In this document: positions 6,859 through 34,071 of the stretch, piece by piece
How positions within the stretch are numbered: the stretch's first letter is position 1
Layout of the letters: the number at the start of each line of letters is the position of its first letter
Assembly: GCF_000023125.1 (NCBI RefSeq)
Contig: NC_013037.1
Coordinates: 6,302,501-6,366,500, forward strand
Direction of reading: 5' to 3'
DNA length: 64,000 nucleotides
From: Dyadobacter fermentans DSM 18053
GTDB taxonomy: Bacteria > Bacteroidota > Bacteroidia > Cytophagales > Spirosomataceae
The notes under the pieces: model-generated
Databases searched by the model: none
Seen by the model: the letters and a program-made list of their open reading frames with translations, nothing else
Told to the model about the DNA's origin: nothing
Translations under genes and position numbers: made by a program

Positions 6859-7025
6859 AAAAAGTGACGGGTGCAAAGTCTCCGGCTATTTACCGCGGCT
6901 AGGCGCCCCCGGCCCTCGCCGCTCCTTAAACCGCCTCCCGACTTTGCACCCAAGGGGCAGGCCCCGTCACTTTTTCTTCGATTGAAGAAGGCGATTGCCC
7001 TGAGCACAAAGCCGGGGCGGCCCCG
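6859..7025. repeat. GC-rich nested inverted repeats after the relaxase gene
   Basis: Bases 6859-6880 (AAAAAGTGACGGG then TGCAAAGTC) pair with two blocks, GACTTTGCACCC (6940-6951) and CCCGTCACTTTTT (6963-6975), separated by an 11-base bulge. The result is a stem of about 22 bp closing a GC-rich loop. Forty bases on is CGGGGC-G-GCCCCG (7013-7025). The 290-base gap between relaxase and ardA holds no convincing gene. Such structure could be a single-strand origin, a transfer termination or recombination site, or a structured RNA. The T-run after the second arm could also make it a terminator. Confidence 0.55.
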
Positions 7026-7056
7026 CCGGGGCTCGTAACTTCAAAGACTTTCAAAC

Positions 7057-7614
7057 ATGAAATCATTAGAAAATGCTCCAAGAATCTATGTAGGTACTTA
7101 CGGAATGTACAACAGCGGTTCACTCTTTGGGAAATGGTTTGATTTGACAGACTATGCTGATGCAAAGGAGTTTTACCAGAATTGCTATGAATACCATAGG
7201 AATGAGTTCGATCCAGAATTGATGTTCCAAGACTGGGAAAACATTCCGGAATTCCTGATCTCCGAATGCAGTTTAGATGATAAGGCGTTTGATTACTTCC
7301 AGGCGCTGTACGAGATGGATGATGATACAGCGGAAGCATTCAAGATTTACTCCGAACAGATTAATAGCTGGCCTGGGAATGGAAAAGTGTTAGGCGATCA
7401 AGTCGAAAGTTTTCAGGAGAGCTACCGGGGGTACTTTGGTGGATCGATGAAGGATGCGAAGATAGAGTACACTTACCAGTACATTGAGGAGACAGGATTG
7501 TTAGCAGATGTACCTGCGACGCTTGAAAGGTATTTTGATTACGAGGCCTTTGCTCGTGACTTGTTTTTGGAAGGATATACCGAGGTGGATGGATATGTGT
7601 TTGCTGACTATTAA
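7057..7614 (+). CDS. ardA: ArdA-like antirestriction protein
   Basis: 185 aa, acidic. It shows the ArdA layout: N-terminal PRIYVGTYGMYNSGSLFGKW, then DLTDYADAKEF, a central FQDWENIPEFLI, and a C-terminal FDYEAFARDLFLEG block. ArdA proteins are elongated acidic dimers that mimic DNA and block type I restriction enzymes and some methyltransferases, protecting an incoming element. Position just after the relaxase on the same strand fits a leading-region antirestriction gene. Length is slightly above the usual 165 or so residues. The same window carries a type I system at 15-22 kb, which this protein could target. Confidence 0.88.
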   Translation: MKSLENAPRIYVGTYGMYNSGSLFGKWFDLTDYADAKEFYQNCYEYHRNEFDPELMFQDWENIPEFLISECSLDDKAFDYFQALYEMDDDTAEAFKIYSEQINSWPGNGKVLGDQVESFQESYRGYFGGSMKDAKIEYTYQYIEETGLLADVPATLERYFDYEAFARDLFLEGYTEVDGYVFADY

Positions 7615-7618
7615 GTCT

Positions 7619-7655
7619 TTCAGAGAGATAGCTAATAATTAGCTATCTCTCTGAA
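7619..7655 (+). terminator. Strong stem-loop after ardA
   Basis: A perfect inverted repeat with 17-base arms, core CAGAGAGATAGCTAA (7621-7635) and its exact complement (7639-7653), and a 3-base loop, begins 5 bases after the ardA stop. There is no long T-run, but stem strength and position suggest it ends the mobilisation/ardA transcript. Confidence 0.7.
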
Positions 7656-8092
7656 TATTAGCATCATAATAATTCGCATTACTGCCGAAATCCGGGATAA
7701 CCCGTGAATCATGGATGATCACCAGTTCAACAATTGAACTGGTTGACCAGCAACCAATTGAGCTACCCGTTCTAATACCTCGCTAACATAAGCCAGACTT
7801 TATTAAATGGAAGAATCACTAGATGACTTTGAAATCGAAACACTAAACTATTGTAGGCTTACATATCCGCTTTCACCTTATTGGGAAAAAATCGGTTACT
7901 AGTCTAGTACTGGAAAGCGTTAAGACGGTAAGTATCGAGTTTTCAAAAAGCCACTACTGATGCTTTGGTAGAAGCATAAAAGATACGCAAAACTCGAGTA
8001 TGCACCTGTGTGTCACCGTTCAAAAGGTAATCCAAAATTTGAAATGTTAGGCTGAATTTCCGAGTCTGAGTGGAACTGCTTATTCGGTATCG
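7656..8092. other. Intergenic stretch without a convincing gene
   Basis: 437 bases. It contains a small inverted repeat CCAGTTCA-N5-TGAACTGG (7722-7742). On the minus strand, tRNA-like fragments resemble a D-arm (near 7754-7770) and a T-arm (7693-7704), but no cloverleaf or acceptor stem can be drawn. A 31-codon open frame starts at 7807 and shows no family resemblance. The stretch may be decayed DNA. Confidence 0.5.
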
Positions 8093-19594: not shown

Positions 19595-20863
19595 TTAAAC
19601 AAATAACCTTTGGAGTAAACCTTTCTTCCAGATTTCAAGTAACTGAATCTCATTTGTGCAGCAGGCAATTGTCGAATCTAAATTTGACAAAAAATCAACT
19701 ATTTTCTTTTGCTCGAAGATTATTGGAAGGTCGATTTCAATATTAGACAATCTTGATGTTGATATGCTGAGTACTTTTGTCCCCTGCGCAATAAACATTA
19801 ACTGCAACTTGACTTTTTCTGACCGCATCAGATAGCCTCCAAATCCAGGCGACATCGTATTACGATTGGGCCGTGCAAGAAAAGTGTGAAGTCCGGCTAG
19901 TACTTTTTCGCCGTCTAGGTTGAAGATTTCAATACTTTTACCAATGTCATTGTAGTCCTCCGACGCATCTGCAATAACCAAATCACCCTCTTTGCAATAG
20001 CTGTCCTCGCTAAGCCTATTCAATAAAACATCGTCGTTTACAAAGGGAACCGGCTCCTTCTTGATGTCGAAAAGTATGTTAAACTTTGTATGTATGTCTC
20101 CATAATGAATGTTTCTGACTTCGCCTTCGGTATAGTTCAGTTTGTCTCTCGACAGTGAATTGGTAACCTTAAAGGTATATACCTCACCAAACTTAACTTT
20201 CTGCCAATCCGGAAACGCCTCTCCATTATCACCCTTAAATCTCAACTCCTGCGAAAAGATTTTTTGCATCACCCCTTTTTTGTATTGTTCCAAAAGGCTT
20301 TTCTTCTTTTTGAGGGCTTGCAGTTTTTCGTCTACTGCGGTTAGGAAGGAGGCAATTTTTTGTTGTTCCTTCTTTGAGCATATTGATATTTTGCATCCCC
20401 CAATGTCCCCTAGGTTAATCTTTTTGGGGAACGCGGTATGGATAATCCTTTTATGAAGTTCTTTTCTAAAATAAACTGAATTAATATTTTGGTTGAAAAA
20501 TTCTACACTACCATCAATTTTAATGCGAAGCAGAGCTAGGCTAACATAGATACCAAGAGGCTCGTCATCCCTTACAATAGCGGTGTCACCAATTGTACCA
20601 GCAGTTATGCGGGTCATCAAAATATCATTAGTTTTTGGTTTTATTTTGAAATCTTTTCTAAATGCTGCCTCAGATATGTATTTTCTTGACGCTTTTAAAT
20701 CTTTTATATCTTCTACACTTACAAAATTTACACCTTCACTTGTGTAAGTTGGGGTTTGATGAGTACCGTCGTAAATTTCAAAAATATCAACTAAATCAAA
20801 TCTGTTCCAATCTCCCGAGAATTCAGGAAACCGCAACCTCGGCACATTACTTTGCTGTTCCAT
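19595..20863 (-). CDS. hsdS: Type I restriction enzyme, HsdS (specificity subunit)
   Basis: 422 aa in two half-repeats. Each has a variable target recognition domain (about 20-150 and 225-360) and a conserved helical spacer: EQQKIASFLTAVDEKLQALKKKKSLLEQYKKG (about 165-200) and EQKKIVDFLSNLDSTI...WKKGLLQ (385-420). HsdS binds a bipartite DNA site and organises two HsdM and two HsdR. It starts 3 bases after the hsdM stop. The frame is intact. The specificity cannot be read from sequence. Confidence 0.94.
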   Translation of the reverse strand: MEQQSNVPRLRFPEFSGDWNRFDLVDIFEIYDGTHQTPTYTSEGVNFVSVEDIKDLKASRKYISEAAFRKDFKIKPKTNDILMTRITAGTIGDTAIVRDDEPLGIYVSLALLRIKIDGSVEFFNQNINSVYFRKELHKRIIHTAFPKKINLGDIGGCKISICSKKEQQKIASFLTAVDEKLQALKKKKSLLEQYKKGVMQKIFSQELRFKGDNGEAFPDWQKVKFGEVYTFKVTNSLSRDKLNYTEGEVRNIHYGDIHTKFNILFDIKKEPVPFVNDDVLLNRLSEDSYCKEGDLVIADASEDYNDIGKSIEIFNLDGEKVLAGLHTFLARPNRNTMSPGFGGYLMRSEKVKLQLMFIAQGTKVLSISTSRLSNIEIDLPIIFEQKKIVDFLSNLDSTIACCTNEIQLLEIWKKGLLQRLFV

Positions 20864-20866
20864 AAA

Positions 20867-22439
20867 TCAAAAAGGAGTTGAAATACCTAATTCTTTACAA
20901 AAAGCGGCAATGGTAGCATCGGTCTCGCCAATTTGCTTTTCCAATGAGACCAATTCCTGCGCAATCGCATTGATATCAATGCTATCCTCGGCTTCAAACG
21001 TATCTACATAGCGCGGAATGTTCAGGTTATAATCATTAGCTGCAATTTCCTCCAAAGTCGCACGCTTGCTGTATTTTGGTTCTTCGGCGCGGCTGCGGTA
21101 GGTTGCAATGATCTTGTCCACATGCTCATCGCGCAGCATGTTCTGGGTTTTTACCTTTTCATAATGCTGGCTGGCATCGATAAAGAGAATGTCTTCCGGC
21201 TGCTCCCGGCATTTCTTGAAAACAAGGATGCTGGTCGGGATGCTGGTCCCGTAAAAGATATTGGCAGGCAGACCTATCACAGCGTCCAGATAGTTGCGGT
21301 CCTCGATGAGATACCTGCGGATATGCTGTTCAGCTCCGCCGCGGAACAAAACGCCGTGCGGTAGTACAATCGCCATCGTTCCATTGTCGGCCAGATGGTA
21401 AATCATATGCTGCACAAAAGCAAAATCGGCTTTGCTGGAAGGTGCCAGTTTTCCATACTGGCTGAAACGGTCATCGGTCGTGAAGAGGGGATTGGCGCTC
21501 CATTGTGCCGAGAAAGGCGGATTGGCGACGATCGCTTCAAACTGTTTGTCGAGATGCTGCGGATGTTCGAGGGTGTCCTCCTGTTTGATGTCGAACTTGC
21601 GGTAATGCACATCATGCAGGATCATGTTCATCCGCGCGAGGTTATAGGTCGTGCGGTTGAGCTCCTGCCCGTAAAAGTTGCTCACCCTCCTTCACTTCCC
21701 TGGCCACGCGCAGCAACAAGGAGCCCGACCCGCAGGCAGGATCATAAACGGACCGGAGCTTGTCTTTGCCCGTGGTGACGATTTTGGCGAGTACTTTACT
21801 AACTTCCTGGGGCGTATAAAACTCGCCGGCTTTCTTTCCGGCATTGCTCGCAAACTGTCCGATCAGGTATTCGTAAGCATCTCCAAGAATGTCCAGCTGC
21901 GTGTTATGTAATTGAAAATCAATCTTGTCCAAGTGCTGCAAAACTTTCGCAATCAGTTCATTCTTGGCAGATTCTGTTCTTCCTAATTTCGTACTCGTTA
22001 AATCGAGGTCTTCAAATAAATTATCAAAATCATCCTCGCTTTCGGTCCCCATCGTGCTTTGCTCGATGTTGTTGAGGATTTTGGCCAGGTCTTCCAATAT
22101 GAACTTATCCTCACGTTCCTTATCGCTGTTCCCACGCTTGGCAACCTCGCTAAACAGCTCAGAAGGTTTTAGAAAGTACCCAAGTTTGGACAATGATTCT
22201 TCTCTGATCGCCTCAATGTATTCTTTGCCATTGTCAGTCTGCTCATCGATCTCCTTGAATTTCAGACCATCGGGCTCTAAAATGGAGTCGGCATAGATCT
22301 CCATTTTCTCAGATAGATATTTATAAAAGATAAAACCCAGAATGTAGTCGCGGAACTCATCCGCATTCATTTTCCCGCGAAGGGTATTGGCAATATTCCA
22401 CAGCTGTTGTTCAAGCTGCTTCTTTTGGTACTCGGACAT
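20867..22439 (-). pseudogene. hsdM: Type I restriction enzyme, HsdM (methyltransferase), split by a one-base frameshift
   Basis: Two frames together encode a complete HsdM. The first part (22439 to about 21690) has the N-terminal helical domain, GEFYTPQEVSKVL and the SAM motif DPACGSGSLLLRVAREVKE. The second part, starting at VSNFYGQELNRTTYNLARM, has the catalytic NPPF (FEAIVANPPFSAQW). The junction is in GGAGGGTGAGC (minus strand, about 21683-21690): removing one G of the GGG run restores one frame. The full length, 1573 bases, is one over a multiple of three, giving 523 aa when corrected. Without HsdM neither methylation nor HsdR-mediated cutting should work. A sequencing error is possible and should be checked against reads. 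Confidence 0.85.
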
Positions 22440-22629
22440 TAAAAATCAAATATGTTGAAGTTGTAATGTCGCAATTTCCATCAAAACAACTAGAAAATGA
22501 ATATTTATCTTTAAGTTGTTTCAATGGTTCACCGACTTCGGCTGGATGCCAGTCCCTGTCTTCGAGTCCATTGTACCGCGAGCAGATCTTGCCATAATCA
22601 TCGACGCTATGCTTGTGCATTGAAATCAC
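22411..22629 (-). CDS. Small unknown ORF between MNT-HEPN and hsdM
   Basis: 72 aa from GTG 22629, or 69 from ATG 22620. It overlaps the upstream MNT-HEPN stop by 4 bases and the hsdM start by 29 bases. The composition (YGKICSRYNGLEDRDWHPAE) looks protein-like, but the last part reads through the hsdM leader. No family recognised. It may encode a small regulator or be a leader frame. Confidence 0.3.
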   Translation of the reverse strand: MISMHKHSVDDYGKICSRYNGLEDRDWHPAEVGEPLKQLKDKYSFSSCFDGNCDITTSTYLIFNVRVPKEAA

Positions 22630-23480
22630 CTATCTGCAAACCCCGCAATGCGCTCCCTGCAAATCCGCTCCGTCAAATCTCTCAGCAATGTCACCCGACT
22701 GCCGAGGTATTCCAATTCTTCCTTTTCGATCTTGTAATTCTTGTTGTAGCGCGCATCGATGTACGCTTTTTTGAGAAGTATAAATAGTCTATCCTCTTCG
22801 GCTGTTTTTCTTGGAAAAACGGTTGCAAAGTTTGTGTCCAGTTTCTCGACCTGATTTCCCAAAATCTCGATGTCGTGGATTCTTGGCTTGTAATCAGTGA
22901 AAACCAGCAAGATGGCCGCGTAAAATCTTTCCGTGGCCTGGTGAAGTTGAAATGCAGCGATTTTATACCAGGTTTTTTCAATCTGGATATATGCTGTCTC
23001 CAAGAACTGGCAAGCACCTTCGAACCAATGCTCAAATTCCTCTGTCGATTTTTCCACCCGCTGCGCCACATTGAGATTTTTAGGCTCGGACAAAATGAAT
23101 TTCCCGGAATCATAAAGCATAATCCCTTCTTTCAGAATATCTACAAAGAAATAATAGTTCCGCTCGATTTTGTCGTTCACGAAGCCAATGCTGTGGTAGA
23201 TGATGCTGGTCCTGGTGATTTCCTCATTGGCCATCAGCTCCACTTCCAGCTCCCGCGATTTCTTAACCTGCTTGGCGGAATTCTTGTCTTTGGTGACGAT
23301 CAGAATGTCAAAATCGCTCACGTACTCGTATTTCTCCTGGTAGTCTTCCACCCAATCGCCACGCGCATAGCTGCCGAATAGGATGATCATTTCGGCCGGG
23401 ACTTTGCCGAGAATGATCTGGGTGAGGGCTTTTAGTTGCTCTTGTTTGGTTTGCGGGAGGTGGGTGAGGGTGGTTTTCAT
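22626..23480 (-). CDS. Fused MNT nucleotidyltransferase-HEPN protein
   Basis: 284 aa. Residues 30-62 hold the MNT motif GSYARGDW...SDFDIL with Asp56 and Asp58 as metal ligands. Residues from about 145 form a HEPN-like helical domain: WFEGACQFLETAYIQIE, AAFQLHQATERFYAAIL, KPRIHDIEIL and a final DARYNKNYKI, where the usual R-x4-6-H catalytic histidine is replaced by Tyr. In separate gene pairs MNT silences the HEPN RNase; the fused, apparently catalytically altered form is common in Bacteroidota next to restriction systems. As first gene of the type I operon it could act as a sensor or regulator; that is inference. Confidence 0.82.
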   Translation of the reverse strand: MKTTLTHLPQTKQEQLKALTQIILGKVPAEMIILFGSYARGDWVEDYQEKYEYVSDFDILIVTKDKNSAKQVKKSRELEVELMANEEITRTSIIYHSIGFVNDKIERNYYFFVDILKEGIMLYDSGKFILSEPKNLNVAQRVEKSTEEFEHWFEGACQFLETAYIQIEKTWYKIAAFQLHQATERFYAAILLVFTDYKPRIHDIEILGNQVEKLDTNFATVFPRKTAEEDRLFILLKKAYIDARYNKNYKIEKEELEYLGSRVTLLRDLTERICRERIAGFADR

Positions 23481-23982
23481 GGTGTGTGGTTTTTGCTTGG
23501 CAATTTATGCTTTTTCGGCTTGATCCCGAGCACTCCCTTTTCCGAAAAATTCTGCAACCGGCACGTTCTTCATTTAGCTAATAAGCTCGGCCCTGGCACG
23601 ATAAGCGTAAGACGGATGATGAGATTCTTCCCAACACCATGCCTGACCGACTTCAAATTCGAGAGCTTAAACAAGGATTAAACAAAGAAAAAATTTAATT
23701 TTCAAAATTTCTTTTCTAACAAAATTTCTCTAAGTTTACCACTGTACACTAAATGTGGCACCCGAACGAAGGCTGTCATTTAGTTTCCTTTCAGCACCCA
23801 AGAATCTCAGAAAAATTGCAATCCTTATTCTATCCGCTGGCCGCTGGCGGAATAAGGAAACTCATGTCTTTACTCAAATGACATCATTTCACAGGCAATA
23901 ATCATTTTAATTCCAATAAAGTTTTTTAGGCAGTCAGGTCTCACATTCTCAACATTTATCATAATTCTTTAAAACGGTTGCT
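23481..23982. other. Divergent intergenic region between the restriction and peptide operons
   Basis: 502 bases that should hold promoters for both directions. A stem-loop lies at 23823-23857: CCTTATTC pairs with GAATAAGG, with a GC-rich inner stem CCGC/GCG. It sits about 125 bases before the VKOR-fusion gene and could be a 5' leader element or a terminator against upstream transcription. I see no gene and no clear TAnnTTTG box. Confidence 0.5.
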
Positions 23983-25611
23983 ATGCTTAACTTCTTTAAA
24001 GTTTCCGGAGATAATGCCACCGATACATTGTATAGCCTGCTGCGAAATCTGAATGCAAAAGTGACCTGGGAAACCGTTCGGGAAACGATGTTGCAGCATC
24101 CCGATTCTCCGAGTTTACTGAGTTTGAGTGAAGTTCTGTCGGGTTGGAACATTGATAACGCCGCGCTTCAACTGAATACAGTGGAACAGCTCCGCGAGAT
24201 TCCTGTGCCATTTATTACGCAAATCAAAAAGAAAGGTGGATGGTATATTCTGATCAATCAAATTCGCGAAAAACATATCCAATACACCGACAGTGAGCAG
24301 GGAGAGGTAACTTTATCGCTGAGCGATTTTGAAAAAAGGTGGACTGGGATAGTGTTATTGACAGAAATCAATGAGCAATCCGGTGAAGTTGATTATGATT
24401 CAAAACGATTAAAGGAGCAATTGAGGAAGTGGCGGAGCCCGTTTGTATCAGGAGCGACGTTACTCGTTTTATTTAGCGCTCTAATGTTTGCCGGACGAAG
24501 CTTTTCAACTCCCGAATGGCTATTGTTTTTTACAAAAATTTCCGGCTTGTTTTTTACGGGTTTGTTGATTGCCAAACAATTAGGTAGTAAAAATGACTTG
24601 ACGGACCGGCTATGCAGGATTAATGACAAAACCAGTTGCGAAAACGTTCTGAATTCACCCGGCGCTAAGCTGTTCGGCTGGCTAAACTGGTCGGACTTAG
24701 GCTTACTCTACTTTGCAGGCGGTTCTTCTGCTTTGCTCTTCACAGGTGAACAGCACAATGAATTCAATCTTTTAAATGCCCTTGCTTTGCTAGCGATGCC
24801 TTACGTCGCTTTTTCGATTTATTATCAAGCCTATAAAGTGCGTCAGTGGTGCACATTATGCCTTGGGGTACAGGTAATTCTTATTGTCGAAGGAGTAATA
24901 GCACTGACTCAATTGAAGGCCTTACCCGGACATATCCAGCCATATTTAGTGCTGCTGATTGGCTTTTTGCTTCCAACTATTGCATGGGTAATTATAAAGC
25001 CGTTATTAGATAGCCGAACCCAAATCCGTCGTGAGCATGAAGAATTATTGGCTTTAAAGCGAGATCCGGCAATATTCAAAACCTTGTTAATTCAACAGCC
25101 TCAATCACCGCCAATTTCTGCTGATATTTACCCGCTTGTGCTCGGAAATCCTGATGCTGAAATCAAAATTACAATGGTGACGAACCCTTATTGCAGTTCG
25201 TGTTCCAGGGCACATAAGGAATTGGAACAGTTGGTTTTGCAAGATGAGAATGTGAGCGTGACGACCATTTTTTCTACAACCGGCGATTCCAGTCCCGCGA
25301 CGAAGGTAGTTACACATTTATTGGCATTGGCCAGGCACGAAACGTCGGCTCGCAGTGCTTTAACTGAATGGTATAGTCAAAAAGAAAAGGACTACAATGC
25401 ATGGGCTAAGTCCCATCCAACGACCACAGATCCCACGGAGATGATGGCAATATGCCGAAACCAAAGGCTATGGTGCCATGAAGCGGATATCGCCCTAACT
25501 CCCACTATTTATATCAACGGCTACAAAATGCCCGAAATATATAAACTAGAAAGCTTGCAATGGATTTTAAAGAGAGTGGAGTTTGATAAAGTGTTAGAAT
25601 CAAACGTATGA
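23983..25611 (+). CDS. VKOR-thioredoxin oxidoreductase with inactive C39-like N-terminal domain
   Basis: 542 aa. Residues 1-130 resemble a C39 peptidase domain without the catalytic Cys (PSLLSLSEVLSGWNI, PVPFITQIKKKGGWYIL, FEKRWTGIVLL). Residues 150-345 are a vitamin K epoxide reductase domain with four or five transmembrane helices, loop cysteines Cys211/Cys219 and the active CxxC, Cys290-Cys293 (QWCTLCLG). Residues 385-540 are a thioredoxin/DsbA-like domain with CSSC at 404-407. VKOR-Trx fusions form disulfides in exported proteins. As first gene of an operon with a six-cysteine precursor peptide, it probably oxidises that peptide; the dead C39 domain could bind the leader. Its TGA overlaps the next ATG (25608-25611). 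Confidence 0.88.
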   Translation: MLNFFKVSGDNATDTLYSLLRNLNAKVTWETVRETMLQHPDSPSLLSLSEVLSGWNIDNAALQLNTVEQLREIPVPFITQIKKKGGWYILINQIREKHIQYTDSEQGEVTLSLSDFEKRWTGIVLLTEINEQSGEVDYDSKRLKEQLRKWRSPFVSGATLLVLFSALMFAGRSFSTPEWLLFFTKISGLFFTGLLIAKQLGSKNDLTDRLCRINDKTSCENVLNSPGAKLFGWLNWSDLGLLYFAGGSSALLFTGEQHNEFNLLNALALLAMPYVAFSIYYQAYKVRQWCTLCLGVQVILIVEGVIALTQLKALPGHIQPYLVLLIGFLLPTIAWVIIKPLLDSRTQIRREHEELLALKRDPAIFKTLLIQQPQSPPISADIYPLVLGNPDAEIKITMVTNPYCSSCSRAHKELEQLVLQDENVSVTTIFSTTGDSSPATKVVTHLLALARHETSARSALTEWYSQKEKDYNAWAKSHPTTTDPTEMMAICRNQRLWCHEADIALTPTIYINGYKMPEIYKLESLQWILKRVEFDKVLESNV

Positions 25612-26948
25612 AAACTGCTCTTTTTATCATGCTTCCGGTTCCGAGCCACTATAACGCCTGTTTTGGCCTTGCAAATCAACTGCGGATGCAAGGATACCGC
25701 GTAGTGTTTTCGGGCACTCGGGACTTACAAAAGCATGTCGAAGCACAGGATTTCGAATTTACTATACTACACTGCTTGGAAGAGTATCTGGTAAACAATT
25801 GGCGGGCGGCTTTGGGTTTCTTTTTGAAAAATATTGTTAACAAAAGATTCACGCTTCTTCGCTACCGGGAGTTTCTCGAATCCCTGCAAGCAGTTCGTGA
25901 AATTTGTCTCGCTGTTGATCCTGATGAGATTTTTATTGACCAACATTTAAACCATTATTATTTCTTACTTCATCAGCAATACAAAAACATAACGTTAGTC
26001 AACAGTAAGCTGCCAACGCGCCGGCAAAAGGGCATACCTCCTTTAACTTGTGACACGCCGTTTAGGGACAGTTTTGTTTATCGCTTGTTGGCGAATGTTC
26101 TTTGGAGAGCTTACCTGGCTAAACGTGGGGCATTGTCCATATTAAAGAAAGCAGTGTTTTTAGGTGCCGATGATCAGTACTTTTTAAAAAGATTTTCATC
26201 GAGGCAAGGTGTGGACATTGATTTGTTTCGCCGGAGGGACAATGCCCTTTACGAAAGTATAAGGAATGTGCCGATCATTCATCTTCGGCCTCGGTTCCTG
26301 GAATATGATTGGTATGTGCCGGACGAATATGAGCGGTTTGTCTATTATGCTTTTGAAAAAAAATCCAACGATTCACAGGATTCTTCTGCCATCTGGACGA
26401 GCATTTATGCGTTACGTAACGATGCAAACACGAAAAAGAAGAATTTGATTTACGCTTCATTGGGAACGCTGGGTGCATTGCACAAAGCAGTCGCAACCGG
26501 TTTTTTCCGTAGATTAATTACTGCTGTTGAGCACATACCAGATACTTACCTGATTATCTCCGCTGGTGAGATGTACACGGATATCGCAAACCGACAAAAT
26601 GAAAAAGTGTTGATCACGCGGTTTATGCCTCAAACCGAATTGCTACCATATTGCGATTTGATGGTCACGCATGCCGGGATGAACTCGATATGTGAGTGTT
26701 TAACGGCAGGTGTCCCAATGCTCGCGTATCCACTGAACTATCAAAGCGATCAACCGGGAAATGCTGCGCGATTGGTGGCGAAAGGGTTGGGCATAAAGGG
26801 GAATTTGCGGAGAGATTCGGCACGAAATATCAGAATGAAGATAATGGAATTGTTGAATAATTTGACCTATCGAGACAATGTCGGTCAGGTTAACATGAAC
26901 CCAATCAATGATTGGAATTTAGAGACGGATTTGGCCAAATCACCATAG
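25608..26948 (+). CDS. GT-B fold glycosyltransferase (UGT/MGT type, GT1-like)
   Basis: 446 aa. The C-terminal nucleotide-sugar signature is clear: THAGMNSICECLTAGVP (His355, Gly357) and YPLNYQSDQPGNAARL (Asp381-Gln382), with SLGT at 285-288. The N-terminal acceptor domain starts ALFIMLPVPSHYNACFGLANQL, with a His at 14 near the expected catalytic base position. GT1/MGT enzymes glycosylate small molecules, macrolides and lipids. In this operon, directly before the precursor peptide, it may add or extend a sugar on the peptide or on a lipid carrier; the substrate is inference. Coupled to the upstream gene by ATGA overlap. Confidence 0.85.
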   Translation: MKTALFIMLPVPSHYNACFGLANQLRMQGYRVVFSGTRDLQKHVEAQDFEFTILHCLEEYLVNNWRAALGFFLKNIVNKRFTLLRYREFLESLQAVREICLAVDPDEIFIDQHLNHYYFLLHQQYKNITLVNSKLPTRRQKGIPPLTCDTPFRDSFVYRLLANVLWRAYLAKRGALSILKKAVFLGADDQYFLKRFSSRQGVDIDLFRRRDNALYESIRNVPIIHLRPRFLEYDWYVPDEYERFVYYAFEKKSNDSQDSSAIWTSIYALRNDANTKKKNLIYASLGTLGALHKAVATGFFRRLITAVEHIPDTYLIISAGEMYTDIANRQNEKVLITRFMPQTELLPYCDLMVTHAGMNSICECLTAGVPMLAYPLNYQSDQPGNAARLVAKGLGIKGNLRRDSARNIRMKIMELLNNLTYRDNVGQVNMNPINDWNLETDLAKSP

Positions 26949-26978
26949 ATCAATTACTTACTTAAACAATTTCCAATC

Positions 26979-27164
26979 ATGAAAAAGTTGCTAATGGATT
27001 TTGCTGCAAACTTGCTGTCAAAGCAGCAGATGAAAGAAATTAAGGGTGGCGGTAGTTATCGGTGCGTATGTGCGGATTCCAGTCAGAACTCGCACTGCAT
27101 CGAGGCTGTGGATAAATATAGCATTTATTGTCCTTGTTGGGGCGGTTCCGTAGAAAACTGTTAA
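26979..27164 (+). CDS. Double-glycine leader precursor peptide, six-cysteine core
   Basis: 61 aa. The leader has the Bacteroidota type LSKQQMKEIKGG (residues 13-24), so cleavage is expected after Gly24 by the C39 peptidase encoded downstream. The 37-residue core has Cys at 29, 31, 40, 51, 53 and 61: a CVC pair, a lone Cys, a CPC pair and a C-terminal Cys, together with five Ser and four Tyr/Trp. Thr is absent. Six Cys and an operon-encoded VKOR-Trx argue for disulfides. Two glycosyltransferases argue for an O- (Ser) or S- (Cys) glycan. No lanthionine synthetase or radical SAM gene is in the operon. Probably a secreted bacteriocin-like or signalling peptide. Confidence 0.88.
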   Translation: MKKLLMDFAANLLSKQQMKEIKGGGSYRCVCADSSQNSHCIEAVDKYSIYCPCWGGSVENC

Positions 27165-27170
27165 GAGCTT

Positions 27171-27191
27171 GGGGGCACTTTGGATGCCCCC
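27171..27191 (+). terminator. Stem-loop after the precursor gene
   Basis: GGGGGCA-CTTTGGA-TGCCCCC, 7-base perfect arms, starting 6 bases after the precursor stop and followed by ATCTTT. Likely a partial terminator or 3' stabiliser that makes precursor mRNA more abundant than the downstream exporter mRNA. Confidence 0.65.
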
Positions 27192-27256
27192 ATCTTTAAC
27201 CATTATCGCATTGATCAAATTTGCAATATTAACTGCATTCATCCGCTGCTTCATTT

Positions 27257-28081
27257 ATGTTGGACAGGTTGTTTGGTAGAAGGAAAATACATGCGGGCGA
27301 TGAAAATGGACTCGTAACGGTTATTCTAACGGTTTGGAAAAGAAATCACTTGGAAGAACAGATTGCGGCGCTTTTGAGCCAGACCGAGCAGCCGTACCAA
27401 ATATGGATATACCAATGCGGGGCCCATGTTAACATTGAAAAGGTCCTGAGAAAGTACAGTAATATCCAGTTTGTTAGTTCATCGGTTAACCTAAAATACT
27501 TCGGTAGATTTTCTCTCGCATTGCATGTGAAATCTGAATACGTTTGGATACTGGATGATGACGTTATCCCGTCACCGAACTGGCTTGAAGAAGCCCGAAG
27601 AATGTCAGAAGCTAGAAATGCAATTATAGCCAGTGCCGGGAGAATCATCAGTTATCAAGCGAGGTCGAATGGACCGGAAATAACTGATCTGAGACGTTTC
27701 CTGGTAGGGGATGGCGATGAGGAAAAATTTTGTAATTACAACAGAACTGACACAGAAACAGATTTTGGTTGCAATAGTTGGCTGTTCAAAAGAGATTGGG
27801 TGTCTTTATTTTGGCGAATTAAACCTTACACGCTCGAAAATGCGGAAGATATTCACTTATCTGCTGCTTGCAAGATATTCGAAAATATACCCACCATTGT
27901 ACCTGCCCAGAGCGAGTTGTTATTATGTGGCAATTTAAAGAAGTATTATGGCCATGACGAGGTTGCGTCCTGGAAAAGATTTGACTTTCAGAAAGAGAGA
28001 ATCGAGGTGATCAATTACCTGATACGCGAACATGGATGGCAGATATTGCAAAGAACATATCGAGAGCATCCGACGCTTTGA
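27257..28081 (+). CDS. GT-A fold glycosyltransferase (GT2-like)
   Basis: 274 aa. The N-terminal nucleotide-binding strand VTVILTVWKRN, the metal-binding DDD at residues 100-102 (WILDDDVIPSPNW) and a later acidic pair NAEDIHLSA (Glu197-Asp198) outline a GT-A glycosyltransferase. In glycocin loci the S- or O-glycosyltransferase that modifies the peptide core is a GT2-type enzyme located near the precursor and a C39 exporter; this gene holds the equivalent place between the two. No membrane segment, so it would act in the cytoplasm before export. Donor sugar and acceptor residue are unknown. The next gene starts 23 bases after the stop. Confidence 0.82.
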   Translation: MLDRLFGRRKIHAGDENGLVTVILTVWKRNHLEEQIAALLSQTEQPYQIWIYQCGAHVNIEKVLRKYSNIQFVSSSVNLKYFGRFSLALHVKSEYVWILDDDVIPSPNWLEEARRMSEARNAIIASAGRIISYQARSNGPEITDLRRFLVGDGDEEKFCNYNRTDTETDFGCNSWLFKRDWVSLFWRIKPYTLENAEDIHLSAACKIFENIPTIVPAQSELLLCGNLKKYYGHDEVASWKRFDFQKERIEVINYLIREHGWQILQRTYREHPTL

Positions 28082-28104
28082 AATCTCTTCACTAGCATCA
28101 TACT

Positions 28105-30513
28105 ATGGCCTTTCCTATTTACAAGCAGCTGGATCAAATGGACTGCGGCCCCACTTGTCTTCGCATGATTGCGAAGCATTTCGGGAAGCATTATACAGCA
28201 CAAACCCTTCGGGAAAAATCGCAAATCAGCCGCGACGGAGTATCCATGTTGGGCATTGCGGAAGCAGCGGAAACAATTGGTTTCACGTCGATTGGTGTGA
28301 AGGTAACGGTAGAAAAACTGATAGATGAGGTTCCACTTCCCTGCGTATTACATTGGGGGCAAAATCATTTTGTGGTTTTGTATGAGGTGAGTGGTCGCTC
28401 ATCCGTGATTGACAGACACCTATTAGGAAAGGCCTGGGGAGGGAGGGCATCAGGTAATTCCCTGGATAGTAGAATAATTACGCCTTCTGTTCATGAGAAA
28501 AATGTACACGACAGAGAAAATGGGTATGGCAATAAGAAAGCGATTTTTCACATCGCCGATCCTGCCAGCGGCCTGGTTTCGTATACAGCTGCTGAATTCA
28601 ATAAACAGTGGCTTTCGGGTGGTGTTGAAGATAGCAGGGAGGGTTTAGCGCTGCTGCTGGAACCTACCACGCGCTTTTACGAGGAAGAGGGGGAGAAAGT
28701 GAAAGGATTGCATTTTTTTCAACTGCTGGGTTATCTCTGGCGGTATAAAAAACTGGTTGTTCAGTTAGGGCTCGGCATGTTGGTAGGCAGTGGACTGTCA
28801 TTGCTTATGCCTTTCTTCACGCAATCAGTGGTCGATATAGGAATTAATAACCAGAACTTATCTTTTATATATCTGATTTTAATTGCTCAAATTGTTCTTT
28901 TACTGAGCACAGGAGCAGTTGATTTTCTTCGCAGCTGGATATTGCTTCATATAAGCACAAGGCTCAACCTGACGGTTTTGTCGGAGTTTCTTTCCAAACT
29001 AATGCGCCTTCCTCTTTCCTTTTTTGATGTCAAGCAATTCGGTGACATTATGCAGCGGATGGGCGACCATAGTCGCATTGAGGCTTTTCTCACGGGGCAA
29101 ACGCTGAGTCTTTTGTTCTCGATTTTCAATTTAATTGTTTTTGGTTTTGTACTTGCTTACTACCATATATCGATATTTTTTGTAGCTGCTGGTGCGTCCA
29201 TTTTGTACGCGGTTTGGGTGTTGTTATTCCTGAACCGGCGCCGGGTTTTGGATACGAAACGTTTTGATGTTTCGTCTTCCAACCAAAGCAAAATTGTTCA
29301 GCTTATCCAGGGTATGCAGGATATTAAGCTGGCAGGAGCCGAAACCGCCAAGCGCTGGGAATGGGAGCGGGTACAAGCGCAGCTTTTTAAATGGTCGATA
29401 AAGAGTTTATCGCTATCGCAGTATCAACAGGCAGGGGCACTTTTGATCAATCAGGGGAAAAACATTTTTATCACCTTTTTGGCAGCAAAGGCTGTGATTG
29501 ACGGGCAGTTAACCTTGGGCGGAATGGTGTCTGTCCAATATATTCTAGGGCAGTTCAATGCACCCATTGAGCAAATGATCAGCTTTCTGCGCTCGTGGCA
29601 GGATGCGCAAATGAGTTTGGAAAGGTTGAATGAGGTCCATGAACTCGCCGACGAAGAGCCCGCCGGGGAACCGAAAAGAAGGACCTGGGACCAAGAACAA
29701 GATATTAACTTAAATAACATCACTTACACTTACCCGGGTGCAGGAAATGAGCCTGTTTTGAGGAACATCAATTTCACTATTCCATATGGTAAAACGACCG
29801 CTGTTGTAGGGACAAGTGGAAGTGGCAAAACGACGCTATTGAAATTATTGTTACGATTTTACGAGCCTCAAAGTGGATCTATTTCATTAAGTAAATGCGC
29901 AATACAAGAGTCAGATTCAACAGGAAAAAAAGTTGGAGATGCAAGTCATCAAAACATAATTGGAAATGCGCTTGATTTGAAATACATTTCTCATAAGGCC
30001 TGGCGGCTTCAATGCGGCGTTGTAATGCAGGAGGGATTTATTTTTTCCGATTCCATTGCCAGAAATATTGCCGTGGGCGACGAGGTAATTGATCAGGAGC
30101 GGTTATATCAGGCTGCGCATATTGCTAATATTCATGAATTTATAGAGTCACTCCCCCTGGGCTATCATACCAGAATAGGAGCGGAAGGAAACGGGATAAG
30201 TCAGGGGCAAAAACAACGCATATTAATCGCCCGCTCCGTTTATAAAAATCCTCAATTGTTGCTTTTCGACGAAGCGACCAATGCACTTGATGCCAATAAT
30301 GAAGCCATCATTATGCGAAACCTGGACGAATTTTTTAAGGGCCGTACCGTGATAGTCGTAGCCCATCGCCTGAGTACAGTCAGGCATGCCGACCAGATCG
30401 TGGTTATGGACAAAGGAGAAATTGTAGAAATAGGAACGCATGATGAGTTGGTACTTGCTCATGGAAAATATTTTGAGCTGGTTAGTAATCAATTGGAATT
30501 AGCAGCTGGATAA
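28105..30513 (+). CDS. Peptidase-containing ABC exporter (C39 peptidase-ABC, PCAT)
   Basis: 802 aa. The C39 peptidase is complete: Gln8, Cys14 (QMDCGPTCL), His88 (WGQNHFVVLY) and Asp152 (HIADPASG). About 45 extra residues lie between the His and the Asp. Six-helix membrane domain about 215-500, then the nucleotide-binding domain: Walker A GTSGSGKTT, signature region GISQGQKQR, Walker B LLLFDEATNALD. A second insert of about 28 residues (SLSKCAIQESDSTGKK onward) follows Walker A. In the family the peptidase cuts the leader after GG and the transporter exports the core. Its substrate is very likely the six-Cys peptide. It is followed after 65 bases by the HlyD gene. Confidence 0.95.
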   Translation: MAFPIYKQLDQMDCGPTCLRMIAKHFGKHYTAQTLREKSQISRDGVSMLGIAEAAETIGFTSIGVKVTVEKLIDEVPLPCVLHWGQNHFVVLYEVSGRSSVIDRHLLGKAWGGRASGNSLDSRIITPSVHEKNVHDRENGYGNKKAIFHIADPASGLVSYTAAEFNKQWLSGGVEDSREGLALLLEPTTRFYEEEGEKVKGLHFFQLLGYLWRYKKLVVQLGLGMLVGSGLSLLMPFFTQSVVDIGINNQNLSFIYLILIAQIVLLLSTGAVDFLRSWILLHISTRLNLTVLSEFLSKLMRLPLSFFDVKQFGDIMQRMGDHSRIEAFLTGQTLSLLFSIFNLIVFGFVLAYYHISIFFVAAGASILYAVWVLLFLNRRRVLDTKRFDVSSSNQSKIVQLIQGMQDIKLAGAETAKRWEWERVQAQLFKWSIKSLSLSQYQQAGALLINQGKNIFITFLAAKAVIDGQLTLGGMVSVQYILGQFNAPIEQMISFLRSWQDAQMSLERLNEVHELADEEPAGEPKRRTWDQEQDINLNNITYTYPGAGNEPVLRNINFTIPYGKTTAVVGTSGSGKTTLLKLLLRFYEPQSGSISLSKCAIQESDSTGKKVGDASHQNIIGNALDLKYISHKAWRLQCGVVMQEGFIFSDSIARNIAVGDEVIDQERLYQAAHIANIHEFIESLPLGYHTRIGAEGNGISQGQKQRILIARSVYKNPQLLLFDEATNALDANNEAIIMRNLDEFFKGRTVIVVAHRLSTVRHADQIVVMDKGEIVEIGTHDELVLAHGKYFELVSNQLELAAG

Positions 30514-30578
30514 GTTGGCATAAAGCCCGACGAAACTTGTCGTCGTAATTGGCTTTTGACCGTTAACCCATAACCTGT

Positions 30579-31637
30579 ATGCCGCAAAATCAGGACTTTA
30601 CGCCACGTGCAACTCCCTTCAACGAATTTAATTCGGAGGAAGTACAGGAGATCATCAGCCGCCCGCCGAATTGGCTGATAAGCTGGGGCATTACATTGTT
30701 TTTTGGAGTAATGGTGTTGTTAGGATTAGGGACATGGCTGATCCGCTATCCGGATACTATTACCGCACCATTTACACTCATAGCAACCGAGGCTCCGCGG
30801 GCAATTGTGGCGCAAACCGAAGGTGAACTAACTAAGCTTTTTGTCAAGAATGGACAACAGGTTTTGAAGGGTCAAACGGTTGCTTATCTAGAAAGCGCGG
30901 GCGATCATGAGCAGATCATAAAGTTGGAAAAGGAAATGGAACAGATCAGTCATGCGATTTCAAATAATCGCTGGGATTCGGTCCGGCATTTTCCGATCGT
31001 TTCTTACAAGCAATTGGGTGAGTTACAAAATGACTTTCAATTTTTTAATCAAAAACTTACCGGATTGAAATCCTTTCTTGTAGGTGGAATTTATTATCAA
31101 AAGCAAAAAGGGGAAATACTTGGAGTTGAGAATGCTATTGAGGAACGCAAAATTGACTTTTTGCAATCATTGCATGCATTGTGCAATAGCATCGATCGTT
31201 GGCGGCAGAAATACATTCTTACGGCGCCAGTCGCTGGAAAAGTATCTTTCTCAATGCCATGCCACGAGGAACAATATCTAATCGCAGGCCAGGAGCTTAT
31301 GACGGTGGGGCCGACAATTAATTCATTCCAGGGGATTGTTAAAATCCCGCAACCAAACATCGGCAAATTGAAGGAAGGGCAGACAGTTTTGATTAAACTG
31401 GACGGATTTCCACACCGGGAATATGGCATGGTGGAAGGCAAATTGGCCCAACTTTCGAATTCACCCGGGAAAGATGATAGCTACTGGGGATATATCGAAT
31501 TGCCTGACAAACTGAAAACGCGCTACGGGCATACGCTATCCTACCGAAACGGCCTGAAAGGCCAGGCCGAAATCATTACGGCTGACAGGCGACTGGCGGA
31601 AAGGCTGCTATCCACGATTCGGGTCGGAGGGAAGTGA
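30579..31637 (+). CDS. HlyD-family membrane fusion protein
   Basis: 352 aa. A cytoplasmic N-terminus is followed by one transmembrane helix (about 33-57), a biotinyl-lipoyl-like half motif (IVAQTEGELTKLFVKNGQQVLKGQTVAYLES), a short helical hairpin and the second half motif (YILTAPVAGKVSF), then a barrel domain (VLIKLDGFPHREYGMVEGKL). It links the ABC exporter to an outer-membrane TolC-type channel, not encoded here. The helical hairpin is short, making the protein about 80 residues shorter than typical HlyD. Last gene of the peptide operon; it ends 7 bases before the convergent SMP-30 stop, leaving no room for a terminator. Confidence 0.9.
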   Translation: MPQNQDFTPRATPFNEFNSEEVQEIISRPPNWLISWGITLFFGVMVLLGLGTWLIRYPDTITAPFTLIATEAPRAIVAQTEGELTKLFVKNGQQVLKGQTVAYLESAGDHEQIIKLEKEMEQISHAISNNRWDSVRHFPIVSYKQLGELQNDFQFFNQKLTGLKSFLVGGIYYQKQKGEILGVENAIEERKIDFLQSLHALCNSIDRWRQKYILTAPVAGKVSFSMPCHEEQYLIAGQELMTVGPTINSFQGIVKIPQPNIGKLKEGQTVLIKLDGFPHREYGMVEGKLAQLSNSPGKDDSYWGYIELPDKLKTRYGHTLSYRNGLKGQAEIITADRRLAERLLSTIRVGGK

Positions 31638-31644
31638 CTTGGCG

Positions 31645-32490
31645 TTATCCACGCCCCCGCACCACAAAAAGCGACCCCGCCAGCGGCTGCGCCAGCAGCT
31701 CAACATCCGTAAGTCCCGTGCGGGCGGTGGTGATGTAGAGGTCGCGCAGGGTGGGGCCGCCGAATGTGCAGGAAGTGACGAGTGTGACTGGTAAATGTAT
31801 TTCGTCGAGGCAGAGGCCTGTGGCGGGGTTGAATCGCTTCACTTTTCCGCCGCCCCAGATTGCTACCCAGAGCATTCCTTCGCTGTCGATCGTCATCCCG
31901 TCGGGGTAGCCTTCTTCCGGTGCGATGCGGATGATGGTCCGTTTGTTGGAGATTGTTGCGTCGGCGGGGTGGAAATCGTAGGCGACAACTTCTTGTGTGC
32001 CGGTGTCGATGTAGTAGAATGTCCTCTGGTCGTGGCTCCATGCCAGGCCGTTGGAGCAGCTGACGCCGTCGATTTTCGTTTGTACCGAATGGTCGTTGTC
32101 CAGCATATATAGCTTCCCGGCATTGGCTTTGCCGGTTACCGACATTGTGCCGGCCCAGAACCGTCCGGCGGGATCGCATTTGCCGTCGTTGAAACGGTTT
32201 TCTGGTAGATTGGCTTCGGGGTCGGTGATTTGTTCGAGAAGCTCGTTTTCGAGGTCGATATGGTAAAAGCCGTGGTGCAGCGCGCCTATCAGGCTACCGG
32301 TTTTGGTCAAGGCAATGGCCCCGACCATTTGTCCGGCTTTAAAAATGTGGTGTTTTTCAGTGAGCGTAAAATATTGGTGGATCTCGCCCCGCAATATATC
32401 AACCCACAATATACGCTGCCGATCCGCGTCCCACACCGGGCCTTCGCCCAGCAGGCATCGGTGTTCCAATACGGTTGCGATCGTACTCAT
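31645..32490 (-). CDS. SMP-30/gluconolactonase family lactonase
   Basis: 281 aa six-bladed beta-propeller of the SMP-30 family: LLGEGPVWDADRQRILWVDI (metal ligand Glu15), RFNDGKCDPAGRFWAGTMS (Asn and Asp ligands), GLAWSHDQRTFYYIDT, and GYPDGMTIDSEGMLWVAIW. These enzymes hydrolyse sugar lactones to aldonic acids. Last gene of the carbohydrate operon, 9 bases after the symporter gene. With the SDR and the enolase-superfamily dehydratase it would give a non-phosphorylating route: sugar to lactone to aldonate to 2-keto-3-deoxy acid. Confidence 0.92.
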   Translation of the reverse strand: MSTIATVLEHRCLLGEGPVWDADRQRILWVDILRGEIHQYFTLTEKHHIFKAGQMVGAIALTKTGSLIGALHHGFYHIDLENELLEQITDPEANLPENRFNDGKCDPAGRFWAGTMSVTGKANAGKLYMLDNDHSVQTKIDGVSCSNGLAWSHDQRTFYYIDTGTQEVVAYDFHPADATISNKRTIIRIAPEEGYPDGMTIDSEGMLWVAIWGGGKVKRFNPATGLCLDEIHLPVTLVTSCTFGGPTLRDLYITTARTGLTDVELLAQPLAGSLFVVRGRG

Positions 32491-32499
32491 TTCGGTCGG

Positions 32500-34071
32500 T
32501 TAGGCGTATTTGACATAAAAAAATAGGACGATCGCCGTGATGAGCGCCCACCAGTAGAATGGGTTCCGGATGCCGCGCTGCTGCTCGCGCTCGGCTGCGG
32601 GTAATGTGAGGCTGGCACGGTTCCAGATCAGCCCTTCCAGCTCGGCCTCGGGCTTGGGCGCGGTAACGAGGCTCACGAGCACGCACGCCGCCATGCAGGT
32701 CCAGAAAACAATGCCTGTGCGGTTCAGGAAAGGCATTTCAGGGAAAATGAATTCAATCAAAAGAGAAAGGGGGATCGTCATGATGCCGGCAGTGAGTGCG
32801 CCGGCGTGCGTGGTTCTTTTCCATAAAATACCCAGCAGGAACATCGCTGCAATGCCCGGCGTGAATAGTCCGTAAGCGTTGATGAGGTAGAGAAATACGG
32901 GCTTGTCGGAATGTGCCAGGAACAATCCCGTACACAAAATGCCGATCACGATAATGGTCGCGCCAGACACTCTTCCGAAGCGCACAGCGTCTTTTTCCGA
33001 TGTTTTTTTGCTGAAATAGGGCAGGTAAATGTCCATGGTCAGGATGGTCGTGCAGGAATTGATCGCCCCCGAAAGGTGCGACATAACCGCCGCAATCAGT
33101 CCCGCCATCACGAGCCCTACCAGCCCGGACGGCAGCAGGTTTTGCACCAATGTCGGAAATAGCAGGTCGGGTTTTTCCAAATTGGGGAACAATTTCGGGG
33201 CTACCAGCGCGGGTACCGTGATGATCAGCGGAATGAGGAATTTGAGGTAATCGGCAAAGATCACACCCATGCGCGCGTGCCATTCGTTTTTCGACGCGAG
33301 CACTCTTTGCACGATAAACTGGTTGGTGGCACAGTAAAACACGCTGATGCAAAGCGAACCGCCCAGGTACATCGTCCACGGGAAATCCGGGTCGTTTGCC
33401 GGGAGGATCAGCTCCCAGTTTTCGGAGGTGGCCATCACGGCCGATACACCGCCCGCGGCGTCCACCGTGGCCACGGTGAGGATAATCCCGCCGAGCACCA
33501 GCACGCCCAGTTGCAGCATTTCTGTCCAGATCACCGCGCGTAACCCGCCGATAATGGTGTACAGGCCCGTCAGTACCGCCAGCACCACCACGCTCGTCAG
33601 CACAGGAATGTCCAGCAGCGAATGCAGCGAAAGTGCTCCCAGATACAGCACCGCGCTGATTTCCACCAAAACATAAGTAAGCAGAATCAGCACCGCGTAC
33701 GTCGTGCGCGCCGCTCCGCCGAACCTTTTATGCAAAAATTCAGGAACGGTGTAAAATCCGTTTCGGATGTAAAAAGGCAGGAAAATCCATAGCAATGCAT
33801 TGAACCCCATGAAAATCGCGCCCCATTCCATTGCCACAGCAATGAAGCCGCGACTATAAGCCATGCCCATTGCACCTACCAAATGATGGCTGCTGATGTT
33901 GGAAGCGATAATGCTGCCGCCGATCATCCACCAGGGCAGCTTGTCGCCAGCCAGGAAGTAGTCGCGTTTGGTTTGTTCGCCTTTTCGGGAGGCGTACATG
34001 CCCAGGCCGATCACGCCCAAAATGTAAATGCCAAATATCGTTGCGTCGAGCGCGGTGAGGTTGATATCCAT
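32500..34071 (-). CDS. Sodium/solute symporter (SSS family)
   Basis: 523 aa, about 13-14 transmembrane helices. Family features include YFLAGDKLPWWMIGGSIIASNIS near the N-terminus, the GLRAVIWTEMLQ segment and AVMSHLSGAINSCTTI. SSS proteins import sugars, sugar acids and related solutes with sodium. It should carry the monomer that reaches the periplasm through SusC/SusD across the inner membrane. The start codon overlaps the stop of the upstream gene (TAATG), so expression is coupled. Confidence 0.93.
   Translation of the reverse strand: MDINLTALDATIFGIYILGVIGLGMYASRKGEQTKRDYFLAGDKLPWWMIGGSIIASNISSHHLVGAMGMAYSRGFIAVAMEWGAIFMGFNALLWIFLPFYIRNGFYTVPEFLHKRFGGAARTTYAVLILLTYVLVEISAVLYLGALSLHSLLDIPVLTSVVVLAVLTGLYTIIGGLRAVIWTEMLQLGVLVLGGIILTVATVDAAGGVSAVMATSENWELILPANDPDFPWTMYLGGSLCISVFYCATNQFIVQRVLASKNEWHARMGVIFADYLKFLIPLIITVPALVAPKLFPNLEKPDLLFPTLVQNLLPSGLVGLVMAGLIAAVMSHLSGAINSCTTILTMDIYLPYFSKKTSEKDAVRFGRVSGATIIVIGILCTGLFLAHSDKPVFLYLINAYGLFTPGIAAMFLLGILWKRTTHAGALTAGIMTIPLSLLIEFIFPEMPFLNRTGIVFWTCMAACVLVSLVTAPKPEAELEGLIWNRASLTLPAAEREQQRGIRNPFYWWALITAIVLFFYVKYA

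Follow-up and report, generated by a model that had tools for sequence, protein, structure and literature searches.

We analyzed a candidate peptide-maturation operon of Dyadobacter fermentans DSM 18053, located in a 64,000-nucleotide stretch of contig NC_013037.1 (positions 6,302,501 to 6,366,500 of the forward strand), which as a whole is referred to as the window. Reading of the open reading frames (ORFs) places six plus-strand genes in a tight row at window positions 23983..31637. They encode a protein that combines a C39-like domain with VKOR and thioredoxin domains (the C39-VKOR protein), two glycosyltransferases (GTs), termed GTB and GTA, a small precursor peptide with a GG leader, a C39 peptidase-ABC exporter, and an HlyD-type adaptor:

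23983..25611, plus strand: C39-like/VKOR/thioredoxin protein, 542 residues (Pfam, alignment, topology and PDB profile matches)
25608..26948, plus strand: GTB, a GT-B (GT1/UDPGT-like) glycosyltransferase, 446 residues (Pfam UDPGT, E 2.4e-15)
26979..27164, plus strand: precursor gene, 61 residues
26979..27050, plus strand: GG leader of the precursor, 24 residues, MKKLL...KGG (TIGR04149 and NF047798, both below cut-off)
27051..27161, plus strand: core of the precursor, 37 residues with six cysteines (Cys) (sequence)
27257..28081, plus strand: GTA, a GT-A (GT2) glycosyltransferase, 274 residues (Pfam PF00535, alignment, fold search)
28105..30513, plus strand: C39 peptidase-ABC exporter, 802 residues (Pfam Peptidase_C39 and ABC; catalytic Cys14 and His retained)
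30579..31637, plus strand: HlyD-type periplasmic adaptor, 352 residues (Pfam HlyD_3)

The C39-VKOR and GTB genes share a 4-base overlap, and the gene that follows the HlyD gene has a convergent orientation. The G+C content is 43-44% across 24-30 kb of the window, compared to 51.5% for the genome, which comprises 6,967,790 bases in one contig. D. fermentans NS114 is a non-pathogenic bacterium of maize stems, according to PMC3035232. An earlier note on this DNA had described a six-gene plus-strand operon over the same span; all six ORFs are present, and Pfam confirmed each of its domain readings (VKOR-thioredoxin, GT-B, GT-A/GT2, C39-ABC and HlyD), although the note had overlooked the Peptidase_C39 domain at residues 16-129 of the VKOR-thioredoxin protein. 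As it had also stated, neither a lanthipeptide nor a radical SAM enzyme was found among the six operon proteins by Pfam and NCBIfam, and on this ground a radical SAM or lanthipeptide locus was rejected.

The precursor was likewise found as described, with a GG leader and, assuming cleavage after GG, a 37-residue core with six Cys. The leader scored 22.5 bits against TIGR04149, short of the cut-off of 25, and 17.4 bits against NF047798, also below cut-off. The genome contains two TIGR04149 matches at E up to 1, and only that of the window precursor has an E-value below 0.01. The operon is thus similar to the TIGR04149/NF047798 peptides in its leader, at sub-cut-off scores, and is distinguished from them by the lack of a radical SAM enzyme.

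Our comparative set consisted of 48 Dyadobacter genomes, in which we detected 17 copies of VKOR in 14 genomes; all 17 loci contain either a GG precursor or a lantibiotic dehydratase. VKOR proteins of several lengths were also present in 93 of the 395 sampled Bacteroidota genomes. For comparison beyond the genus we used 20 loci from the same family, order or class that were chosen by hand, not at random, and whose open frames are 503 to 569 residues long; they hold 22 C39-VKOR proteins.

The VKOR domain of the window protein (PF07884, E 3e-20, residues 179-305) is accompanied by a Thioredoxin_4 domain. The loop pair Cys211/219 and the C290xxC293 motif of the VKOR domain and the C404xxC407 motif of the thioredoxin domain are in place, so that the features of a VKOR oxidase (VKOR domain, loop Cys pair, CxxC, thioredoxin partner) are all present. 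The Peptidase_C39 match at residues 16-129 (E 1.7e-15) begins at profile position 18. In the alignment, the catalytic Cys and His of this domain are absent from all 15 VKOR proteins compared, versus their presence in 14 of 14 related exporters; the C39 domain of the C39-VKOR protein is therefore regarded as dead. Two of the 17 Dyadobacter proteins, L099 (gene split over two frames) and L098 (N-terminus cut), were omitted from this column check.

An extra helix, TM0, at residues of about 149-171, separates the C39 domain from the first VKOR helix. The family profile aligns to the Synechococcus VKOR (PDB 4nv2, 3kp9), with the CxxC kept, only from profile position 176-178, indicating that TM0 is truly extra. 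Compared to the Synechococcus enzyme, the operon protein adds the C39-like domain and the helix, is predicted to be inverted in the membrane, and sits in peptide loci. Profile positions 65-176 align to PCAT1 in one stretch that extends beyond the C39 domain and through TM0, and the PCAT1 segment aligned with TM0 is presumably its first membrane helix; HlyB matched the profile only at E 0.28. The N-terminus of the C39-VKOR protein is thus homologous to the C39 domain of PCAT1, but lacks the catalytic Cys and His as well as the ABC part. Judging from these alignments, the dead C39 domain and TM0 are apparently derived from an exporter. A separate protein of about 500 residues, which starts with a signal-like segment and has its redoxin domain at the C-terminus, occurs in L050, L051, L054, L056, L027 and L130, and not in the window.

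To assess which side of the membrane the VKOR faces, we compared helix counts and the density of lysine plus arginine (K+R) at the membrane ends. Five helices were counted in the canonical VKOR-thioredoxins examined and six in the C39-VKOR family. The redox side had the higher K+R density in all 16 Dyadobacter proteins of the topology set (0.147 versus 0.069 overall; L099 was left out of the 17) and in 22 of 22 C39-VKORs of other genera (0.166 versus 0.029). In the canonical VKOR-thioredoxins of the phylum the redox side was lower in 17 of 17 cases (0.042 versus 0.213), a set that includes the near-identical L114 and L115 and several further closely related proteins. These 17 were drawn from 27 listed VKORs, leaving out short proteins without thioredoxin (L101, L103, L104, L106, L107, L116, L122), L108, with another helix pattern, and L112 and L129 as members of the C39 type; L129, of 383 residues, shows the reversed bias. 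The simplest reading, predicted from charge and helix count, is that the C39 domain, the VKOR sites and the thioredoxin domain all face the cytosol. An inverted VKOR for cytosolic disulfide formation is known from Hatahet and Ruddock (2013), as cited in PMC4727284; in the family studied here, the predicted flip would accompany a fused exporter-like domain and a peptide substrate.

Both GTs were characterized by family models and by structure. GTB is one of only two UDPGT matches in the genome; its PDB relatives are mostly UDP- and macrolide-type glycosyltransferases, and its best NCBIfam scores are to macrolide-type families. GTA matches PF00535 (E 2.5e-9), and its residues DDD100-102, E197, D198 and H200 are invariant among 10 aligned sequences. 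A model of GTA built from three sequences (mean predicted local distance difference test (pLDDT) score 58, usable in the core alone) has a GT-A fold, and TarP, SpsA, chondroitin polymerase and COLGALT1 are nearest among the best 50 of 1508 fold matches. We detected 11 GTA members, that of the window included, in 11 of the 48 Dyadobacter genomes, to which a sample of 394 other Bacteroidota genomes added a single one at E 1e-25; relatives are also found in Parapedobacter and Parabacteroides in a separate collection. Each of the 11 orthologues has a C39-ABC gene no more than 5 kb away; seven belong to loci like that of the window and four to radical SAM loci. The window genome has 45 GT2 matches and three C39-ABC genes, and apart from GTA no GT2 match comes within 130 kb of any of these three. 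The radical SAM loci with GTA relatives are L024 and L077, assigned by Pfam and also holding DUF6625 and a core-2/I-branching enzyme (Pfam), and L025 and L026, assigned by motif and similarity; all four contain conserved candidate precursors with Cys-free cores that end in LLE(N/K)LGLN(I/N)H.

The exporter yielded 15 matches at an identity of at least 59% in the 48 genomes, counting the window, a second locus of the same genome and one partial hit. Each locus was read in its context, and 13 of the 15 contain a GT, either recognised by Pfam or orthologous to GTA. A UDPGT gene immediately adjoins the VKOR gene in nine of the 17 VKOR loci (the window, L023, L050, L051, L056, L057, L076, L099 and L100), two of which carry outright fusions. 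In genome G067, a single ORF of 798 residues comprises a VKOR followed by a GTA (49% identical) and is placed directly behind a GTB gene and ahead of two GG precursors, a C39-ABC gene and an HlyD-like gene. In G029, a single ORF of 827 residues comprises a VKOR followed by a PLOD-type GT (E 4.6e-31), again behind a GTB gene. Other loci encode GT25-type, Gly_transf_sug, core-2/I-branching or further GT2 enzymes, and six Pfam GT families are represented across the loci (PF00201, PF00535, PF01755, PF25342, PF04488 and PF02485). The earlier note had raised the prospect that the GTs are mere chance neighbours in homologous operons; the recurrent adjacency and the VKOR-GT fusions speak otherwise, and chance neighbourhood was rejected given the recurrent UDPGT-VKOR adjacency, the scarcity of UDPGT matches in the genome and the absence of any GT2 match besides GTA near its C39-ABC genes. 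On this comparative evidence we regard the GTs as part of the peptide operon, their types being exchangeable on a constant platform.

The second related locus of the same genome (L049 4899-12079, G000:C1 at about 2.053-2.060 Mb) contains a six-Cys GG precursor, a VKOR, a marginal GT25-like enzyme, a C39-ABC exporter (69% identical) and an HlyD gene. Exporters related to that of the window carry two hypervariable inserts, in the C39 domain (residues ~102-165) and in the ABC domain (~600-635), and the L027 copy has DSAQG-type repeats. L056 contains, next to its HlyD gene, inverted copies of a transposase set of three genes (4926-8042) that we take to resemble IS66.

A mechanical pattern search of the 17 Dyadobacter loci yielded 20 GG precursors, of which 19 have an even number of core Cys; the single odd-count hit (L027 441-737) looks broken. 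The 20 loci of other genera, searched with a slightly wider pattern, gave 53 hits, none odd, including 50 plausible precursors with 4, 6 or 8 Cys. The three discounted hits comprised two with 2 Cys, which we assume to be NifU-like, and one without Cys. Many precursors within one locus are paralogous, and these parity counts therefore lack independence, yet the rule holds strictly. Loci with GTs and those without show even counts alike. By contrast, the LanB-type locus L055, which has a related exporter in a genome without VKOR, encodes a precursor with seven core Cys; this precursor escaped the search pattern. L144 and L141 present arrays of many different GG precursors, all with 4, 6 or 8 Cys, around one VKOR and exporter; each array is a peptide repertoire within one locus.

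The redox Cys were conserved in parallel. The VKOR CxxC is kept in all 16 aligned Dyadobacter proteins, and the loop pair and the thioredoxin CxxC are kept in 14, being lost only in the two GT fusions. The precursors at these fusion loci are two GG peptides with Cys-free cores in G067 and, in G029 (locus L100), two candidates, one with a single core Cys and the other with two but no GG site. Thus, redox Cys are lost in just those two VKORs whose precursors have few or no Cys, suggesting that the oxidase acts on the precursor. None of the 22 C39-VKORs from outside the genus has lost any of the six redox Cys.

The earlier note had interpreted the operon by the logic of glycocins. Glycocins such as sublancin, glycocin F, pallidocin and thermoglycocin are described as sharing a leader-bearing precursor, disulfides, a GT2 enzyme, thiol-disulfide enzymes and a C39-ABC exporter (PMC6405829, PMC8620827, PMC12457901). 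What stood of this interpretation is a dedicated peptide-maturation and export operon to which the GTs belong; kinship with glycocins did not stand, for GTA or for the Cys pattern. The operon does have a C39 peptidase-ABC exporter with its catalytic residues, and a dedicated thiol-disulfide enzyme of another family, the VKOR-thioredoxin protein with its C39-like domain in place of the Bdb proteins. It differs in its non-SunS GTA, in a second, GT1-type enzyme, in the presence of HlyD, and in that no immunity gene was seen in the cluster, the operon having no further gene-like ORF; this is weak evidence, as such a gene may lie elsewhere. The five-Cys glycocin pattern with a Gly-Cys-Gly-Gly/Ser loop (PMC6405829) does not occur in the core, which has six Cys and lacks the motif. 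According to PMC12457901, newer members have seven or more Cys, so that the count is not an absolute criterion; orniglycocin, described there, has three disulfides and two S-linked GlcNAc, and an even Cys count alone therefore does not exclude two S-sugars.

We compared GTA with SunS/GccA-type enzymes, as the earlier note had proposed, and GTA was not SunS-like by family model, PDB profile or fold. The SunS model TIGR04195 has 15 sub-cut-off matches in the genome, and GTA is not among them; the same model passes its cut-off in one of 14 control genomes. A 10-sequence GTA profile found no SunS chain in PDB at E up to 10, and SunS is absent from the best 50 of the 1508 fold matches. Because of these negative SunS tests, the even Cys counts and the Cys-free GTA loci, S-glycosylation by a SunS-like enzyme was rejected as a likely reading.

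The idea of glycocin-like loci outside Firmicutes is not new. For Bacteroidales, calls of glycocin-type clusters or GlyS domains already exist (PMC10352776, PMC4922554), and the title of Singh and Rao (2021), cited in PMC9576775, concerns glycocin clusters beyond Firmicutes. The glycocin predicted for B. fragilis 20793-3 (PMC4922554) resembles our case as a glycocin-like claim in Bacteroidales; the account of it in that source describes no enzymes comparable to the VKOR and the two GTs. Bacteroidetocins likewise combine a GG leader with a C39 exporter, and they differ in being presented in PMC10352776 as unmodified class II peptides. In the open PubMed Central literature, we found no paper on VKOR in such peptide loci.

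Among the 20 loci outside Dyadobacter, a GG precursor was found by the same mechanical pattern in 18, and a C39-ABC gene in 11 within the stretch viewed, with one more further off in L150. The one locus with a GTB gene, in G257 of the same family, has the VKOR-GTB-precursor order of the window, with identities of 39% and 36%. It looks as though the pair of oxidase and peptide is the old core and the GTs are a younger addition in the family.

Elsewhere in the window, a type I restriction-modification set includes HsdR (15983-18907) and HsdS (19595-20863), and its methyltransferase gene (20867-22439, minus strand) is in two overlapping frames and may be broken or reflect a sequencing slip. Rfam gave no matches at the gathering threshold within window positions 22000-33000. 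Promoter-like sites (13 versus 16.8 expected) and terminator-like sites (12 versus 9.0) were uninformative.

Taken together, the product of the operon is probably a secreted peptide that acquires disulfide bonds and glycosylation prior to export, and we infer from the gene content that the mature peptide carries sugar. In the proposed mechanism, the dead C39 domain would bind the leader and so keep the precursor at the cytoplasmic face of the membrane. The cytosol-facing thioredoxin and VKOR sites would form three disulfides, passing electrons to quinone, while GTB and GTA would add one or more sugars in the cytosol from nucleotide donors, most likely on Ser, Thr or Tyr. Such an O-linkage is expected because all Cys are expected to be paired and because GTA relatives serve loci with Cys-free candidate cores. 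The exporter would then cut after GG and, together with HlyD and an outer-membrane channel whose gene lies elsewhere, secrete the peptide. As for function, a bacteriocin-like weapon seems likeliest; this is the weakest step, because no immunity gene was seen. We read the VKOR protein as a putative leader-guided cytosolic oxidase of secreted peptides, with exchangeable GTs in this lineage.

Several observations weigh against this interpretation. The single-sequence AlphaFold model of the VKOR protein (pLDDT 40) is worthless, and the positive-inside rule is only a tendency. Within Dyadobacter, L053 combines a VKOR, a precursor and an exporter, but no GT was recognised there, and in L059 nothing but a DUF6625 gene, on the opposite strand, was found. 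The GTs of L058 are upstream or on the other strand, a GT gene of L056 is on the opposite strand or some kilobases off, and the GT25 match of L049 is marginal (24.2 bits versus a cut-off of 24). The two candidate precursors of L100 retain a few core Cys, and one of them lacks a GG site. Two VKOR loci, L096 and L097, are LanB-type and have no exporter match in the stretch examined; the lantibiotic dehydratase was recognised by Pfam in L097, and that of L096 is 82% identical to it. These LanB loci represent another substrate for the same type of C39-VKOR oxidase. Outside the genus, GTB occurs in just one of the 20 loci, and one more has a marginal GT25, encoded on the opposite strand; since the GTB and GTA profiles alone were run, further GTs could have escaped detection. 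C39-VKOR loci there are mostly without GTB or GTA, and glycosylation would therefore be an add-on. It may also be that one GT modifies the product of the other, or that their targets lie elsewhere.

This last point leads to the possibility that the peptide is secreted with disulfides only and that the GTs act elsewhere, on exopolysaccharide, on lipid, or in self-protection as macrolide glycosyltransferases do. The scarcity of GTB and GTA in the extra-genus loci would be in line with this, as would the macrolide-type families that GTB matches best. However, the fusion of GTA and of a PLOD-type GT to the VKOR protein in two species, the recurrence of six Pfam GT families in these loci, and the lack of any other polysaccharide gene in the operon point the other way, and we consider this explanation possible but rather doubtful. 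Oxidation might instead take place after export, by a VKOR that faces the periplasm as usual. Bacterial VKORs are known to act in the periplasm, and secreted-looking redoxin proteins are encoded nearby in several related loci. Such an orientation is difficult to reconcile with the extra helix and reversed charge bias of 38 of 38 family proteins versus 17 of 17 canonical ones, with an N-terminal domain homologous to a cytosolic exporter domain, or with GTs fused behind the thioredoxin domain, which a cytosolic face would place where nucleotide sugars are. We judge it unlikely.

Least probable, in our estimate, is a true Gram-negative glycocin, in which GTA would be a SunS/GccA-type S-glycosyltransferase adding hexose to one or two core Cys. 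The same gene logic (GT2, thioredoxin-like protein, C39-ABC), the orniglycocin precedent and the earlier calls in Bacteroidales all favour it, while GTA is unmatched by TIGR04195 although 15 other places in the genome match weakly, SunS is missing from both the PDB profile search and the best fold matches, the Cys counts are even with and without GTs, and GTA relatives occur in loci with Cys-free candidate cores (L076 and the radical SAM loci L024, L025, L026 and L077).

Beyond the window, the data are consistent with a widespread, undescribed class of Bacteroidota disulfide peptides, a proposal to which we give about even chances. Their Cys would be paired in the cytosol before export by a VKOR that became inverted by fusion with an exporter's C39 domain and its first helix, with the dead C39 domain serving in leader recognition; in Dyadobacter and its family, the system would be a glycopeptide factory with exchangeable GTs (GT1, GT2, GT25 and PLOD type) adjoining or fused. 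What is new is that GTs are linked to the oxidase, that core Cys numbers follow an even-count rule, and that the oxidase, with its borrowed exporter domain, is predicted to face inward. If this proposal is true, a GG leader followed by an even number of Cys, beside a C39-VKOR gene, would provide a search rule for a large set of unknown peptides. Ordinary bacteria would have a dedicated system for forming disulfides at the cytosolic face, opposite to the customary layout, and a leader-binding module built from a dead protease. The PLOD and GT25 types are known from collagen glycosylation, and these loci would offer a natural toolbox of peptide GTs, some of them of these two types.

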